From contig NZ_AOMA01000080.1 in assembly GCF_000337895.1 (NCBI RefSeq), positions 1 through 41,014 of the forward strand: DNA of 41,014 bases, in the 5' to 3' direction. Shown here piece by piece: positions 32,641 through 40,101 of this stretch. How positions within the stretch are numbered: the stretch's first letter is position 1; every line of letters starts with the position of its first letter. Origin of the DNA: Halobiforma nitratireducens JCM 10879. Lineage in GTDB: Archaea; Halobacteriota; Halobacteria; Halobacteriales; Natrialbaceae. The notes under the pieces are model-generated. The model had not been told where the DNA came from. It did not search any database and saw nothing but the letters and a program-made list of their open reading frames with translations. The position numbers were made by a program, and so were the translations under genes.

Positions 32641-33207
32641 ATGGATCAACTAGAACAGTCGCTCCTCGACGCGCCGATCATCGAGAAAGACGGCTACCAC
32701 TACTTCGTTCACCCGATCAGCGACGGGCTGCCGAAGCTCGATCCGGGACTTCTCCGGGAGATCGTCATCGGCATCATCCGCAAGGCGGAACTCGAGGACG
32801 TCGACCGAATCGTCACTCCCGCGGCGATGGGAATCCACATCTCGACGGCCGTCTCGCTGATGACGGACATTCCCCTGACCGTGATCCGAAAGCGCGAGTA
32901 CGGGCTCGAACACGAGGTCGCGATCTCCCAGCAGACCGGCTACTCCGAGAACGAGATGTACATCAACGACGTTCGCGAGGGAGAACGAGTGCTCGTCCTC
33001 GACGACGTGCTGTCGACCGGTGGAACGCTCGCGTCCGTCCTCACCGCACTCGACGAGATCGGCGCTGAAGTCGTCGATACCGTCGCAGTCATCAAGAAAG
33101 TCGGCGGCGAGAACAAAGTCGACGACGCCGGCTACGACGTCAAGACGCTGATCAACGTCGATGTCGTCGACGGCGAAGTCGTCATCGTCGACGAAACTGG
33201 AGACTGA
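32641..33207 (+). CDS. hpt: Hypoxanthine/guanine phosphoribosyltransferase
   Basis: It salvages purine bases with PRPP to give IMP or GMP. The 188-residue protein matches the archaeal-type HGPRT: N-terminal [28 protein letters not shown], a base-binding region with [15 protein letters not shown], and the PRPP motif [30 protein letters not shown] has the conserved Lys-Lys segment near the base pocket. The length is what I expect for this subfamily. It might act on adenine or xanthine too; the exact base specificity cannot be read. The leaderless promoter at 32609-32616 supports the ATG start. Confidence 0.92.
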
Positions 33208-33569: not shown

Positions 33570-35510
33570 ATGGTGCAGAAACACAATCAGTCGGGACGTA
33601 ATGTCAACCGACGTCAAGTCCTGCAGGGGGTAGGCGGTGCTGGGGTTATCGCAGTCGCCGGCTGCCTCGGTAACGGAAACGGAGACGGCGACGCTCCGTT
33701 CGAGGTCCAGCTGGAAGTCAACGCGGACAACGACGACCGCGTCCAGATGGTCGAGCTGATCGCCGAGTCGATGGAACAGACCGGCTACTTCGACACGTCG
33801 ATCGAGACCTACGAGTGGAACACGTACGTTGGGCGCGTTCTCGACACCGAATACGCCGAGAACGGTCACATCGCTGCTATCGGCCTCTCCGGGACGTTCA
33901 ACCCCGAGAGCTTCGCCGACGCGCTTCACCAGTCGGACAACCACGGACAGTGTTGTAACCTCCAGGGTATCAGCGACGACGAACTCGACGATCTGCTCGA
34001 GGGTGCCCGGTTCGACATGGACGTCGTGGAAGACTCGGAGCTCCGTGCCGAGCGCTACGACGAGATCTGGCAGCACCTCGCCGAGAACCGGTACAGTTCG
34101 ATCACGCACTTCGACCTCCTCGCGCCCGTCATCAGCGCGGACCTGCACGGCTACAGCACGTATCCGTTCACCGAGGGGCTGTTCGACTACGGGCTGTACG
34201 CTCCCCAGGACGAACAGGTTTCCTGGCTCGATCGCGACGAAGGGTCCCATCCGGACGATACGGACCTCGGCGATCTCGAGGAGGGCGGCATGCTCACGAT
34301 CGGAGCCGGTGCGAACGTCGACTCCTTCGACGTGCCGTACAGCAACGACACGACCTCGACGATGGCCCAGGAGTTCATCTTCGAACAGCTCGTGACCTCC
34401 GACGCCGACGGCAACCTCTACCCGTGGCTCGCCGAGGACTACGAGCTCGTCGAGATGCAAGACATCGAGCGGGAGGACTACGAGGACTACATGATCTCGG
34501 TCGACGCCGACGAAGACGGCGTCCTCGGTACCGACGAGCAGGTCATCATCCAACACCCCGATGACAATCCGTTCACGGACGACGAAGTCCGCGTCCTCAC
34601 CCCCGACGAAGCGGCCGACGCCGTCGACGACGGGACCTTCGGGATGCAGTTCCAGTACGAGCTCCGCGAAGGCGTCGAGTTCCACAACGGCGAGGAACTC
34701 TCCGCAGAGCACGTCGTCGCGACCTACGAGCGCTACGAAAACTCCGACCTGTCGGCCCAGACGTTCGACTCCGTACTGCACGCGGAGGAAGTCGACGAGT
34801 ACACCGTCAACCTCTATGCGCAGGTTCCCGACGCCGAAGCCGAGCGCGAACTCCCCGGCGTCTACATCCACTCGCTGGAACAGGCCGACCTCGAGGGCGG
34901 CGACATGGACCCGCGACAGGGGAACGATCCGGTCGGTACCGGTCCGTACGAGTTCGATGAGTTCGTAGACGAGCAGTACGCCGAGTACACCAAGTTCGAC
35001 GACTACTGGGTCGAGCAACAGGGCGTCGACTCGATCGACTGGTACGACGGGCCTGCGGAGTTCCCCGACGGTCCCGTCGTCGAGGAGATCGAGTTCGAGA
35101 TCATCCCGGACGACGCGACCCGCTCCGGTGCGCTCCAGAACGAGGAGATCGACGCTACGTTCGGTCTCGCCTCCGGGACCCTCGACGAATTCGATCAGTC
35201 CGACGAGTTCCTCGTCGAGGCCGTCGAGGCCGGCAGCTACGACTACATCCAGTACCCCGTCAACGTCGAACCGTGGGACGACTCGCGTCTCCGCGAGGCA
35301 GTCAACCACCTCGTTCCCCGGGAACAGATCACCGAGAACGTCTTCAACGGCTGGGCTGTTCCCGCCTGGACGGACGTTCCGGCACTCGCCGAAGAGCTCG
35401 GGACGGTAGATCCCGACGCACTCGAGGAACAGATTCGACCGTACAACGAGTACGACCCTGAACGCGCCGAAGAACTGCTCGAAGAAGTGGTCGACGACTA
35501 CGATCTGTAA
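33570..35510 (+). CDS. Circularly permuted family-5 substrate-binding lipoprotein
   Basis: The periplasm-equivalent binding protein of the importer, 646 residues. NRRQVLQG...VAGC gives a Tat signal with lipobox Cys32. Residues 43-210 align with the C-terminal lobe of SBP_bac_5 proteins such as DppA: IETYEWNTYVGRV, then AAIGLSGTFNPESFADALHQ, CCNLQGISDDELDDLLEGAR, and a final HGYSTYPF. After an Asp-rich linker (about 220-238), residues 240-640 match what is normally the N-terminal part: MLTIGAGANVDSFDV..., EFIFEQLVTSDADGNLYPWLAEDYEL, LREGVEFHNGEELSAEHVV, NDPVGTGPYEF, and the end DPERAEELLEEV. In DppA that last motif directly precedes the segment which here comes first. So the domain order is circularly permuted. 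Ligand unknown; peptides or other small molecules are typical. Confidence 0.9.
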   Translation: MVQKHNQSGRNVNRRQVLQGVGGAGVIAVAGCLGNGNGDGDAPFEVQLEVNADNDDRVQMVELIAESMEQTGYFDTSIETYEWNTYVGRVLDTEYAENGHIAAIGLSGTFNPESFADALHQSDNHGQCCNLQGISDDELDDLLEGARFDMDVVEDSELRAERYDEIWQHLAENRYSSITHFDLLAPVISADLHGYSTYPFTEGLFDYGLYAPQDEQVSWLDRDEGSHPDDTDLGDLEEGGMLTIGAGANVDSFDVPYSNDTTSTMAQEFIFEQLVTSDADGNLYPWLAEDYELVEMQDIEREDYEDYMISVDADEDGVLGTDEQVIIQHPDDNPFTDDEVRVLTPDEAADAVDDGTFGMQFQYELREGVEFHNGEELSAEHVVATYERYENSDLSAQTFDSVLHAEEVDEYTVNLYAQVPDAEAERELPGVYIHSLEQADLEGGDMDPRQGNDPVGTGPYEFDEFVDEQYAEYTKFDDYWVEQQGVDSIDWYDGPAEFPDGPVVEEIEFEIIPDDATRSGALQNEEIDATFGLASGTLDEFDQSDEFLVEAVEAGSYDYIQYPVNVEPWDDSRLREAVNHLVPREQITENVFNGWAVPAWTDVPALAEELGTVDPDALEEQIRPYNEYDPERAEELLEEVVDDYDL

Positions 35511-35567: not shown

Positions 35568-36524
35568 ATGAGCTTACGACGTTTCATACTGAAACGATTC
35601 ATATCGATAATTCCGATACTGTTCGGTGTATCGGTCATCACGTTCGCGCTCGTTCACCTGACACCTGGCGATCCGATCGACCAGATGGTCGGGTTGAATC
35701 CCGACATGAGCCCGAGCGAGGAGGCACAGCTCCGGGCACGATACGGGCTTGACGGGCCGATCTGGCACCAGTACATGACCTGGATGGAAAACGTCCTGAC
35801 CGGCGACTTCGGAGAGGTCATCAGCTCCGGGCGAGATGTCTCCGAAGTCATCATGACCCGCCTTCCCGAGACTATCGCACTCGGGCTTTTCGGCTGGGTG
35901 TTCGGGCTGATAATCGCGATCCCGACCGGTATCTACGCGGCGGTCAACAAAGACCAGCTGGGCGACACCGTCAGTCGGTTCCTGGCGCTCTCGGGTATCT
36001 CGATCCCGAACTTCTGGCTCGGTCTGATGTTGATCCTGATCGGGTCGATGTGGCTCGGCTGGTGGCCGGTGCTGGCACCGTCCCGGCTACCGCTGTACCA
36101 TCCCGAGATGCTGTGGTACCTAGTTCTTCCCGGGATCACGATCGGGACCGCGTCGGCGGCAGCGATGATGCGTGTCATGCGGACGTCGATGGCCGAAGAA
36201 CTGAACAAAGAGTACGTAACTGCGGCCAGGGCGAAGGGACTTCCCGAACGACAGGTCGTGCTCAAGCACGTGCTTCGCAACTCCCTGATTTCGGTCGTCA
36301 CGCTGGCCGCGACGCTGACCGCGAGTATCATCTCCGGGTCCGTCGTCGTCGAATTCGTCTTCAACTGGCCCGGATTGGGGATGGAACTGGTTAATGCGAT
36401 CGAGCAGCGTGAGATCAACCTCATCATGGCGATCACGCTGTTTGTCGGTGTCATCATCATCATCGCGAATCTCGTAGCGGACATCCTGTACGCAGCACTC
36501 GATCCGAGAATCAGATATGACTAG
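35568..36524 (+). CDS. ABC importer permease, DppB-type
   Basis: A 318-residue integral membrane protein of the oligopeptide/dipeptide importer, with six hydrophobic helices. It opens with RRFILKRFISIIPILFGVSVITFALVHLTPGDP, the standard DppB/OppB start, and contains the EAA loop YVTAARAKGLPERQVVLKHVLRN that docks onto the ATPases, followed by the last helices and ADILYAALDPRIRYD. It is 57 bases after the binding-protein gene and overlaps the next permease by eight bases (ATG before TAG). The helices VFNWPGLGMELVNAI match the family's conserved loop. It pairs with the DppC-type subunit. Confidence 0.95.
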   Translation: MSLRRFILKRFISIIPILFGVSVITFALVHLTPGDPIDQMVGLNPDMSPSEEAQLRARYGLDGPIWHQYMTWMENVLTGDFGEVISSGRDVSEVIMTRLPETIALGLFGWVFGLIIAIPTGIYAAVNKDQLGDTVSRFLALSGISIPNFWLGLMLILIGSMWLGWWPVLAPSRLPLYHPEMLWYLVLPGITIGTASAAAMMRVMRTSMAEELNKEYVTAARAKGLPERQVVLKHVLRNSLISVVTLAATLTASIISGSVVVEFVFNWPGLGMELVNAIEQREINLIMAITLFVGVIIIIANLVADILYAALDPRIRYD

Positions 36525-37566
36525 GAAGATATCGGCGGAACGGGGACGAATACAGATTACCGGGTTCGACCCGGAACAGGTCGAACAGCGAGAACCGCTT
36601 TCGGACTGGACCGAAGACTCGGGCGGCGAAACAGAGAGCCGATGGCAACGCGGCTGGCATCGGTTCAAGCGCAACAGAACCGCCCTCATCGGTCTCACCG
36701 TCGTCGCGTTACTGTCGCTACTGGCGATTTTCTCGCGACCGATCTCGGTGATGGGGGTCCCGATCCAGCCGTTCTCGCTTGCACCATACGACCCGACGGA
36801 GATTCTCTATCTCCAGGACCCGACGGTCGGCGTCTACGATCCGCCGTCCATGCAGAACCTGATGGGAACGGACGGCTCCGGCCGTGACCTGTTCTCGCGC
36901 ATTCTGTACGGCGGCCGATACAGCATCTCCATCGGCTTCGTCGTCGTCGCGATCACGGCGGCCTTCGGAACGATCTACGGTGCGATCTCGGGCTACTACG
37001 GGGGTTGGATCGACGAGATCATGATGCGTTTCGTCGACACGATCTTCGCGTTCCCGTTCCTTGTCATGGCGCTTATCATCGTCGCGATGCTCGGCGGTGG
37101 CTACTGGCAGCTCGTGCTCGCGTTCTCGCTTGTCGGCTGGGCGAGTTACGCTCGACTTATCCGTGGCGAGGTGCTGAAGATCAAAGAGAACGAGTACGTT
37201 ATGGCTGCGAAAGCCCTCGGTGCACGTGACAAGTCCGTGATCTTCAGACACATCGTCCCCAACGCGATGCCGCCGCTGCTGGTCGTCGCGTCGCTGAACA
37301 TCGGGACGGTCGTCATCGGCGTCGCCGCGCTCGGATTCCTCGGGCTCGGCATGCCGCCGGGCACGGCGGAGTGGGGTACCATGCTCGACCAGACCCGTGA
37401 AACCCTCATCCAGGGGCCTGACGGCGCGATCCCCTGGTGGGCGACCGTCTTCCCGGGTCTCGCCATCTTCATGTTCGTGATGGCGATGAACATGATCGGT
37501 GACGGCATCAACGACGCGCTCGACGCCCAGGAGACCGGCGCTGGCCAACAGGGAGGTGGTGCCTGA
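36517..37566 (+). CDS. ABC importer permease, DppC-type
   Basis: The second permease, 349 residues. A cytoplasmic acidic N-terminus of about 45 residues precedes the family start WHRFKRNRTALIGLTVVALLSLLAIF. Next come LMGTDGSGRDLFSRILYGGRYSISIGF, which is the standard DppC/OppC block, the EAA loop YVMAAKALGARDKSVIFRHIVPNAMP, and GFLGLGMPPGTAEWGTMLDQTRE. Six helices are visible. The start overlaps the end of the DppB-type gene by eight bases and the stop overlaps the next ATG by one base (TGATG), so translation is coupled along the operon. Confidence 0.95.
   Translation: MTRKISAERGRIQITGFDPEQVEQREPLSDWTEDSGGETESRWQRGWHRFKRNRTALIGLTVVALLSLLAIFSRPISVMGVPIQPFSLAPYDPTEILYLQDPTVGVYDPPSMQNLMGTDGSGRDLFSRILYGGRYSISIGFVVVAITAAFGTIYGAISGYYGGWIDEIMMRFVDTIFAFPFLVMALIIVAMLGGGYWQLVLAFSLVGWASYARLIRGEVLKIKENEYVMAAKALGARDKSVIFRHIVPNAMPPLLVVASLNIGTVVIGVAALGFLGLGMPPGTAEWGTMLDQTRETLIQGPDGAIPWWATVFPGLAIFMFVMAMNMIGDGINDALDAQETGAGQQGGGA
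37552..37558 (+). promoter_or_regulatory. Shine-Dalgarno site before the first ATPase gene
   Basis: GGAGGTG lies 7 bases before the ATG at 37566, inside the end of the preceding permease gene. Confidence 0.6.
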
Positions 37567-38690
37567 TGTCCCTGCTCGAGGTCAACGATCTGACGGTCAA
37601 GTTCTACACGAAAGAGGGGGTCGTCACTGCGGTCGACGACCTCTCGTATCAGATCGAGCGCGGCGAGAAGTTCGGTGTCGTCGGCGAATCCGGCGCTGGC
37701 AAAAGCGTCACTGCGCTCTCGCTGATGCGGCTCATCGAGAGCCCCGGACAGATCGAGAGCGGCGAGATCCTGTTCAAGGGCGAGGATCTCCTGGAGATGA
37801 GCGAAGAGGAGCTCCGGACGATCCGGGGCAACGAGATCGCGATGATCTTCCAGGACGCCCAGACCGCACTCAATCCGGTCTACACCGTCGGAGAGCAGAT
37901 CTCCGAGGCGATCAGACATCACCTCGATTACAGCGACAAGGAAGCGAGAGAACGGACGATCCAGTTGCTCGACCGGGTCGGTATTCCGGAAGCGGAAACG
38001 CGGTACGACGATTACCCCCACGAGTTCTCCGGGGGGATGCAACAGCGAGCGGTCATCGCGATGGCGCTATCGTGTGACCCCGACCTGCTGCTCTGTGACG
38101 AGCCGACGACGGCACTGGACGTCACGATCGAAGCTCAGATTCTAGACGAGATCGAACAGCTCGCCGACGAGTTCGACACCTCAATCCAGCTCATCACCCA
38201 CGACCTCGGGGTCGTGGCGGAAGTGTGTGACCGAGTGATGGTCATGTACGCGGGCGCGCCGGTCGAGAAAGCTCCGGTCGAGGAGCTCTACTACGATCCC
38301 AAACATCCCTACACCGTCGGATTGATGAGTTCGATCCCGCGTATCGGGGACGAACGGGAACGGCTACAGACGATCCCCGGAACGATGCCAGACCTCGTCG
38401 AGTTGCCGTCGGGTTGTAGCTTCCATCCACGGTGTCCGTACGCCGAAGAATCGTGTACCCGAACGGAGCCCAAGCTCGTCGACCCCGACACTGGACAGCT
38501 CGAAGAGGGGGTGGAGTCGACCACCGACCACGTCGCCGCCTGCCACGAGTACACGGGTAAGCTTCGAGAGGGGCTCGATTACTCGGTGGAAATTCGCGAC
38601 GCCGCGGCCGGTGACGTCGAAGCAACGGTAGCGAACGCGAACTCGCCTGCGAGTGGGCAGTCACGAATGGACGGTGATACCGATGACTGA
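37566..38690 (+). CDS. ABC importer ATPase, DppD-type
   Basis: A 374-residue nucleotide-binding subunit. Walker A is GESGAGKS (about residues 39-46), the Q-loop lies in IAMIFQDAQTALNPV, the signature is EFSGGMQQRA, Walker B is LLLCDEPTTALD, and the H-loop His is in LITHDLGVVAEV. A C-terminal oligopeptide-type region has CSFHPRCPYAEESC, the cysteine cluster that holds an iron-sulfur cluster or zinc in some OppD proteins. The length is longer than the usual 330 residues because of a low-complexity tail ending at the overlap with the next gene. The start ATG overlaps the permease stop by one base and has a Shine-Dalgarno sequence. Confidence 0.95.
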   Translation: MSLLEVNDLTVKFYTKEGVVTAVDDLSYQIERGEKFGVVGESGAGKSVTALSLMRLIESPGQIESGEILFKGEDLLEMSEEELRTIRGNEIAMIFQDAQTALNPVYTVGEQISEAIRHHLDYSDKEARERTIQLLDRVGIPEAETRYDDYPHEFSGGMQQRAVIAMALSCDPDLLLCDEPTTALDVTIEAQILDEIEQLADEFDTSIQLITHDLGVVAEVCDRVMVMYAGAPVEKAPVEELYYDPKHPYTVGLMSSIPRIGDERERLQTIPGTMPDLVELPSGCSFHPRCPYAEESCTRTEPKLVDPDTGQLEEGVESTTDHVAACHEYTGKLREGLDYSVEIRDAAAGDVEATVANANSPASGQSRMDGDTDD

Positions 38691-40101
38691 GCCAAACGAG
38701 ACGCCGTTGTTGCGCGCAGAGGAACTTCAGAAGTACTACGACAGCAGTAGCGGCGTCATCGACAGCATTCTCGGTCGCACGCAGTGGGTCAAAGCCGTCG
38801 ACGGCGTCGACCTCGAGCTGTACGAAGGCGAAACCCTCGGTGTCGTCGGGGAGAGTGGCTGTGGAAAGAGTACGCTCGGACAGACTCTGCTTCGACTGAT
38901 CGAGCCGACCGATGGGTCGGTCTACTACCAGGAAGCCGTCGAAAACATCGACGGACCGGGCGAGCCGGAACGACAGGAGGTCGACCTGACCGATGTCTCG
39001 GACAGCCGACTTCGAGACCTGCGAACGGACCTGCAGTACATCTTCCAGGACCCGTTCTCGAGTCTGAACCCGCGACTGACCGTCGGCGACATCATCGGCG
39101 AGCCACTCGACATTCACGGCATCGCCGAGGGTGAAGAACGGACCGAGCGCATCTACGACCTGCTGGAGACCGTCGGACTGAACGCGAGCCACGCACACCG
39201 CTATCCCCACGAGTTCTCCGGCGGACAGCGCCAGCGGATCGGTATCGCCCGTGCGCTCGCGGTTGACCCCGAGATCATCATCTGTGACGAGCCGGTCAGC
39301 GCACTGGACGTCAGTGTCCAGGCTCAGATCCTCAACCTACTCGAGGACCTCCAAGAGGAGTTCGGCCTGTCGTACATCTTCATCGCTCACGACCTGAGCG
39401 TGGTCGAGCACATCTCCGACCGGATCGCGGTGATGTACCTCGGCGAGTTCGCCGAAATCGGTACCACCGAGGAGATATTCTCGCCGCCGTACCATCCGTA
39501 TACGGAGGCGCTGCTCTCGGCGATTCCGGAACCCGACCCGCTGTGGGAAGGCGACCAGATCCTCCTGCCGGGAACCGTCCCGTCGCCGCTCGACCCGCCG
39601 TCGGGCTGTCGATTCCACACACGGTGTCCGAAGATCATCCAGCCCGAGGAGTACGACCTCGAGCAGGAAGTCTGGCGCTCGGTCGTCGACTTCAAGCTCC
39701 GGCTCGCCGAGGCAGAGAACGTCGAGTCGGTGACGGACATCTCCGAGGAAGGTGGAGATACCGAACGGGTCGATCCGACGGCGGTCTCCGGGACGGAGTT
39801 CGACGACCTGGTGCGTTCCGAGTTCGACCTCCCGGAGAACGTCGGGGATCGCGAGGCGGAACTCGTTCTCTCCCAGACGATCGACGAACTCCACGCCGGC
39901 AACATCGAGGACGCCCGCAAGCAGATGAACTCGGCGTTCGAATCCCCGTGCGAACAGTTCAACCCGGACCGCATCCCGACGGGGGACACTCACCGGATCT
40001 CGTGTCTGTTGTACGACGAGGAGTTCGAACACCAGCGCGAGCGGTATTCGGGAGCGGGTGACGACAGCGACGCGACCGGAAGCGCGATCGCGGACGACTA
40101 A
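38683..40101 (+). CDS. ABC importer ATPase, DppF-type, with C-terminal extension
   Basis: A 472-residue nucleotide-binding subunit. It has Walker [10 protein letters not shown]-loop [14 protein letters not shown], signature EFSGGQRQR, Walker [13 protein letters not shown], and H-loop [11 protein letters not shown]. The oligopeptide-type C-terminal cap has [11 protein letters not shown] (about residues 307-317). Beyond it an extension of roughly 150 residues is added, Asp/Glu-rich at first and then with a helical part ([20 protein letters not shown]) and two cysteines ([16 protein letters not shown]). Typical DppF is about 330 residues. ATG at 38683 overlaps the preceding gene by eight bases; the ORF starts earlier, at 38653, but the domain starts here. 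A hairpin and T tract follow the stop. Confidence 0.93.

Follow-up and report, generated by a model that had tools for sequence, protein, structure and literature searches.

A circularly permuted SBP_bac_5 protein, predicted to be lipid-anchored, encoded beside dpp-type transporter genes in a haloarchaeon

Gene content and predicted architecture

We analyzed a stretch of 41,014 nucleotides from a haloarchaeal genome, here called the window, in which a 646-aa open reading frame at 33570-35510 on the forward strand is predicted from its sequence to encode a twin-arginine lipoprotein with the SBP_bac_5 (PF00496) order swapped. The preliminary description placed the start at 33696, which corresponds only to residue 43, whereas the open reading frame begins at 33570. 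In the following, N-part and C-part denote the segments that begin and end normal SBP_bac_5 proteins.

32641..33207, + strand: hpt, archaeal hypoxanthine/guanine phosphoribosyltransferase (NCBIfam HPT_Archaea, 245.6 bits, cut-off 200; synteny)
33570..33662, + strand: Tat-type signal peptide (NRRQVLQG ... VAGC), residues 1-31 (sequence; weak match to Pfam TAT_signal, E 0.2, below the cut-off)
33663..33695, + strand: lipobox Cys32 and a 10-residue Gly/Asn/Asp tether, residues 32-42 (sequence)
33696..34235, + strand: C-part, here placed first, residues 43-222 (Pfam, PDB, ortholog comparison)
34236..34274, + strand: joint between the old C-terminus and the old N-terminus, residues 223-235, consisting of the old tail, a few new residues and the old N-terminal extension (comparison with canonical orthologs)
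34275..35507, + strand: N-part, here placed last, residues 236-646, with the new C-terminus ELLEEVVDDYDL (Pfam, PDB, ortholog comparison)
35568..36524, + strand: dppB-type permease, directly downstream of the SBP gene (NCBIfam resemblance; synteny)
36517..37566, + strand: dppC-type permease (NCBIfam resemblance)
37566..38690, + strand: dppD-type ATPase (NCBIfam resemblance)
38653..40101, + strand: dppF-type ATPase (NCBIfam resemblance)

The twin-arginine signal and the lipobox were recognized in the sequence without a predictor; in the accessible text of one study, most haloarchaeal lipoproteins are predicted to be Tat substrates (PMC2945643). A lipobox-like motif precedes the C-part in all 33 permuted proteins of the window's ortholog group. 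The median distance from the cysteine to the first domain is 11 aa in these proteins, as compared to 33 aa in the 12 of the 21 canonical proteins of the group where it could be measured, but no functional conclusion can be drawn from this difference because the proteins share ancestry and some of the old extension now belongs to the new joint.

The four dpp genes are named by resemblance only, since none of them reaches the curated equivalog cut-offs listed. In all 54 distinct loci of the window's group, of which 33 are permuted and 21 canonical, the SBP match is followed by a dppB gene in the same orientation and no more than 139 bases away. Leaving aside the window's own locus, an upstream hpt gene was recovered in at least 15 of the 33 permuted loci and in at least 8 of the 21 canonical loci; these counts are lower bounds because the sequence retrieved around many loci is short. 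Permuted and canonical orthologs thus occupy the same kind of locus, and the order change most likely happened in place. Also, hpt adjoins this dpp operon in several haloarchaeal families. The gene at 32641-33207 scores higher against the broader adenine phosphoribosyltransferase subfamily model (289.9). As a neighbor, hpt hints at a purine-containing substrate, but this is only a lead and the substrate remains unidentified.

Homology of the two parts and orthologs in canonical order

The match to the Pfam SBP_bac_5 profile scored 186 bits against a curated cut-off of 32.4. Residues 358-639 correspond to profile positions 16-275 and residues 35-95, matched when the N-terminal fragment was scanned apart, to positions 280-339. 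Profile segment 280-339 hence precedes 16-275, which is the inverted order that the preliminary description expected such a comparison to reveal. Nine NCBIfam models also match the protein, all of them best in the N-part.

In phmmer searches against the PDB, the N-part aligned to positions of about 15-340 and the first block to about 349-507 of family-5 substrate-binding proteins (from the alignments of three chains). For HbpA (3m8u), residues 357-640 correspond to 61-340 of the chain and residues 44-200 to 350-497. For AppA (1xoc), residues 233-290, 348-601 and 34-200 correspond to 15-72, 69-310 and 349-507. The C-part alone scored weakly (best E 0.097). A profile built from 12 permuted C-parts gave 14 PDB matches at E<=1, of which 13 lie in the C-terminal part of SBP chains, the best being 1xoc (361-508, E 0.0056) and DppA (364-501, E 0.012); the remaining match is malcavernin (E 0.69). 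Taken alone, the E-values of the C-part are weak evidence, but a chance match is ruled out by a single canonical ortholog that aligns to both blocks.

Such orthologs in normal order provide the best proof of the permutation. The Halocatena salina protein WP_247995043.1 aligns to the N-part with 65% identity over 414 aa and to the C-part with 57% over 180 aa, and it matches the Pfam profile in a single stretch in the normal order. Its gene is located on a complete plasmid with permease and ATPase genes downstream, and hpt is absent upstream. When 292 genomes of the class were searched with the window's protein, 28 collinear full-span matches were obtained, including the window itself; below these, close relatives were split into an N-part match and, a few bases further on, a C-part match, which is the canonical order. 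Two genes of opposite order, one permuted (L030) and the other canonical (L055), are both located in an hpt-SBP-dppB locus; their products share 74% identity in the N-part (406 aa), 73% in the C-part (183 aa) and 87% across 23 aa of the signal peptide.

Translations show that permuted and canonical proteins share not only the two parts and the signal peptide but even the joints. In the canonical form, ELIGEVIDDTGIET is followed by PIEVRLEVN, and the permuted chain was opened near the boundary between the two; in the permuted form, the canonical C-terminal tail (WLDREE) joins the end of the canonical N-terminal extension (DxDLxDLxEGG). The swap of the lobes claimed in the preliminary description is thus borne out by Pfam, the PDB and canonical orthologs matching both parts, and the joint at residues 223-235 falls where the old termini had been placed, at about 211-239. 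The linker was mistaken for a new Asp-rich insert: it is mostly old sequence, derived from the C-terminal tail (WLDRDE) and the N-terminal extension (DTDLGDLEEGG). Judging from these alignments, the protein is a permuted relative of SBP_bac_5, homologous in both parts, and not a standard member.

Distribution and number of order changes

The window's draft genome contains five permuted SBP_bac_5 genes (that of the window, L005, L008, L009 and L010) as well as four canonical ones (L001, L002, L003 and L007) and one with only an N-part in a 417-aa frame (L004). The relatives were searched for their order, as had been proposed; among 116 genomes searched within the class, a full-span permuted SBP was found in at least 84. 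Full-span denotes a match from position 35 or earlier to position 531 or later of a 545-position profile built from 24 permuted sequences, that of the window included. Among 246 genomes of the phylum, at least four full-span cases were located outside the class, and the C-part precedes the N-part in all four (L299-L302, from G453, G387, G395 and G433). The first of these carries a C-terminal PGF-CTERM motif (19.6 bits, cut-off 18.8), so the tether may sit at its new C-terminus. By profiles, 5 of the 145 loci from four motif scans contained SBP_bac_5, and scans of viral contigs with the A1 alignment and with L021 led nowhere.

Before the trees were inferred, we dropped copies (L025, L028, L051), genes that were already represented (L011-L013, L023), sequences without a C-part match (L004, L112) or with a partial one (L107), and a locus with another cut (L022). 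Canonical C-halves, which had been misplaced in alignment A3, were left out of A4. The N-part tree of 105 sequences (60 permuted, 45 canonical), obtained with a quick method, implies six order changes, four of which are forced by supported branches. The 39-sequence tree of both parts (N+C) implies four changes, all forced, and rejects a single permuted clade (p=1.6e-8), and a 37-sequence tree that includes the out-of-class cases implies five, three of them forced. For the window's own group, the N+C tree (33 permuted, 21 canonical) contains two forced changes and rejects one permuted clade (p=0.0019). With the 33 permuted and 10 canonical sequences, one clade is likewise rejected by the N-part alone (p=0.021) and by the C-part alone (p=0.0106). 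In the shorter dppB-only tree a single permuted clade was not rejected (p=0.148; four changes, one forced). L030 and L055 are sisters in the N+C (100/100), N (100/99) and C (98/94) trees, and their dppB genes also pair (91/84).

The trees of the SBP parts show that the chain order has changed more than once in the family, and they place the window's own group inside a canonical clade. The preliminary description suspected a conserved haloarchaeal subfamily; the permuted form is indeed widespread, but it is distributed over several permuted groups rather than one. A permuted gene, L083:1297-3027 (G003), groups with the canonical L007, L109 and L110 (100/100) and possibly represents a separate event.

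Repeated gains need not be the only explanation in the window's group. The permutation could have occurred once in the ancestor of the group, with canonical genes such as L052-L055 being later reversions, a scenario that we consider rather unlikely. It would account for the C-part tree, in which four canonical sequences lie within an otherwise permuted group of 26 (94/88), for the F-P at the canonical junctions of L052 and L055, which is found at many permuted C-part starts, and for the fact that, in 170 genomes from the family of L055, its nearest relative by identity is permuted. When the best concatenated tree is given a canonical root, however, a gain-only model with two gains fits as well as the free model, in which the loss rate is estimated near zero, as judged on this tree without bootstrap replicates. 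The C-part tree thus leans to reversions and the best N+C tree to gains alone, and the direction of change remains open.

Related architectures were found elsewhere. In a Chloroflexi MAG, L022:414-2087 (DRBO01000135.1), recovered as a distant match, encodes a lipoprotein with a signal that looks Sec-like by eye, in which the chain opens within the N-part and continues through the C-part to the old N-terminus (Pfam 63-365, then 3-55). The gene is followed by dppB-, dppC- and dppD-like genes, and three further SBPs in the same genome match Pfam in the normal order. Matches covering most of L022 were obtained in 26 of 201 genomes, its own included, with one starting at residue 76, and the order was confirmed in all 10 loci checked (L022 itself and the L124-L132 group). 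Chloroflexota carry a second permutation with a different cut. In a single-contig haloarchaeal genome (G011), L298:1114-5859 encodes a fused double SBP_bac_5 of the order N-C-N-C in one open frame of 1582 aa, within which the true start lies. It is placed on a long branch next to an old permuted clade (69/59). It shows that a tandem state is viable but not that it is ancestral, since its place in the tree is unsure.

Interpretation, structure and precedents

We conclude with high confidence that the gene encodes the lipid-anchored receptor of the adjacent DppBCDF-type ABC importer, in which the SBP_bac_5 chain is circularly permuted; the fold and the transport function are inferred. A far less credible reading is a fusion of two domains, the first block being duplicated or borrowed and the second a truncated SBP without substrate binding of the SBP type. 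The weak scores of the C-part alone against Pfam and the PDB are in line with such a fusion, but both blocks align to one canonical ortholog at similar identity, as noted for H. salina and for L030 and L055, and the N-only and C-only trees agree on the latter pair. The preliminary description would have been refuted by a first block that is an unrelated domain or a duplicate of the end. The former is excluded by the matches of the C-part profile to the C-terminal ends of SBPs and by the H. salina alignment, and the latter was rejected as no second C-part was seen in the 240 bases after the stop in any of the 21 permuted loci translated. An assembly chimera or pseudogene, with the order arising from joined contigs or decay, can practically be discarded even though the window's genome is a draft of 205 contigs and 85% completeness, because the same order recurs across 33 distinct orthologs from independent genomes, of which many are given as 99% complete and some are named isolates, and because the permuted orthologs have open frames, conserved residues and the same neighbors.

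The permuted receptor was also modeled with AlphaFold. An alignment of eight sequences gave a pLDDT of 40.9, and one of 16, including N-halves from five viral-contig SBPs, a pLDDT of 63.2 and a pTM of 0.61, with most of residues 46-197 of the model below 50. The 50 matches listed by Foldseek for this second model are all SBPs (for peptides, nickel, opines, sialic acid and haem or glutathione), among them 5u4o (E 1.6e-13), AppA, DppA and NikA, with 369-484 alignment columns and TM-scores by query of 0.34-0.41; some of them we take to belong to family 5, the others being assigned by their label. A closed circle is not demonstrated, since Foldseek aligns in chain order and the C-part is poorly resolved in the model. 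Both termini of DppA and OppA are located in domain I. It is plausible, but not shown, that the proximity of the old termini still lets the protein fold, as the preliminary description suggested.

Most likely, the protein works as an ordinary DppBCDF receptor that is tethered from another point of the fold. About 13 residues join the old C- and N-termini, and the chain is opened at the boundary between the N-part and the C-part (Pfam about 275-287), so that the anchor leads into the C-part rather than into the old N-terminus; the fold and the Venus-flytrap binding cycle would be kept. The fixed cut may correspond to a tolerant surface loop, and Tat export of the folded protein may ease permutation. 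The permutations may have arisen when a gene was duplicated in tandem and the copies fused, after which the first N-part and the last C-part were lost. In the model of permutation by duplication (reviewed in PMC3320104), a fused tandem intermediate is expected, and this corresponds to the N-C-N-C order of L298; the tandem thus exists in haloarchaea, but none was seen on the lineage of the window. A C-part remnant, suggested by a relative's match that reads past a stop, was not confirmed: none was seen by eye within 240 bases after the stop, in three frames, in 21 of 21 permuted loci, so that duplication, if it was the route, left no visible trace at these loci.

The protein resembles canonical SBP_bac_5 or cluster C proteins (DppA, AppA, OppA, NikA) in having both parts, a lipoprotein signal, the dppB-C-D-F gene order and its nearest sequence and fold matches in the PDB, but differs in the C-part preceding the N-part and in the attachment of the anchor to the C-part. 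The permuted Chloroflexota proteins are likewise circular permutants, L022 being a lipoprotein encoded with dpp genes, but are cut within the N-part. No published naturally permuted SBP_bac_5 was found in the open-licence literature, subscription papers and preprints not being covered. The nearest natural SBP precedent found is Tp0684 (MglB-2) of Treponema pallidum, described as "Type Ic / Cluster Bc", which in the accessible sections of the report is a naturally permuted, tethered ABC-importer receptor that binds ligand, and tethering is also raised there as a possible reason for permutation (PMC4990184). It belongs to another SBP cluster (type I/B, glucose) and has another cut, and those sections are concerned with clades of permuted homologs rather than with changes of order between close orthologs. 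The best sequence and fold matches of the window's protein are family-5 SBPs, and it is not a type I/cluster B sugar-binding protein. A study of composite haloarchaeal genes (PMC5992828) contains nothing on permutation, SBP or peptide.

We regard the protein as a genuine circular permutant within a known family; it appears to be functional, the function being inferred. As far as we searched, the frequency of the permutation, the repeated order change at one cut and the close canonical partners are new. A broader proposal, which we can neither favor nor disfavor, is that the order of archaeal SBP_bac_5 proteins is labile: the same permutation at one cut would have arisen repeatedly, and perhaps been reversed, by in-place rearrangement within conserved operons, favored by low-complexity Asp/Gly/Asn linkers and folded export, with the anchor shifted from lobe I to lobe III. 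To our knowledge, natural circular permutations are mostly recognized between distant relatives. Here, permuted and unpermuted orthologs are 73-74% identical with the same neighbors, a fused tandem protein occurs in the same archaeal order and a second cut in another phylum, so that how natural permutation comes about, and what follows from it, can be tested directly in a very large receptor family. When haloarchaeal SBPs are annotated with profiles, permuted proteins are silently split or truncated. A further SBP_bac_5 match, at G004:C5:175976-177574, has its C-part match before its N-part match and contains an in-frame TAA, and it is possibly a decayed permuted gene.
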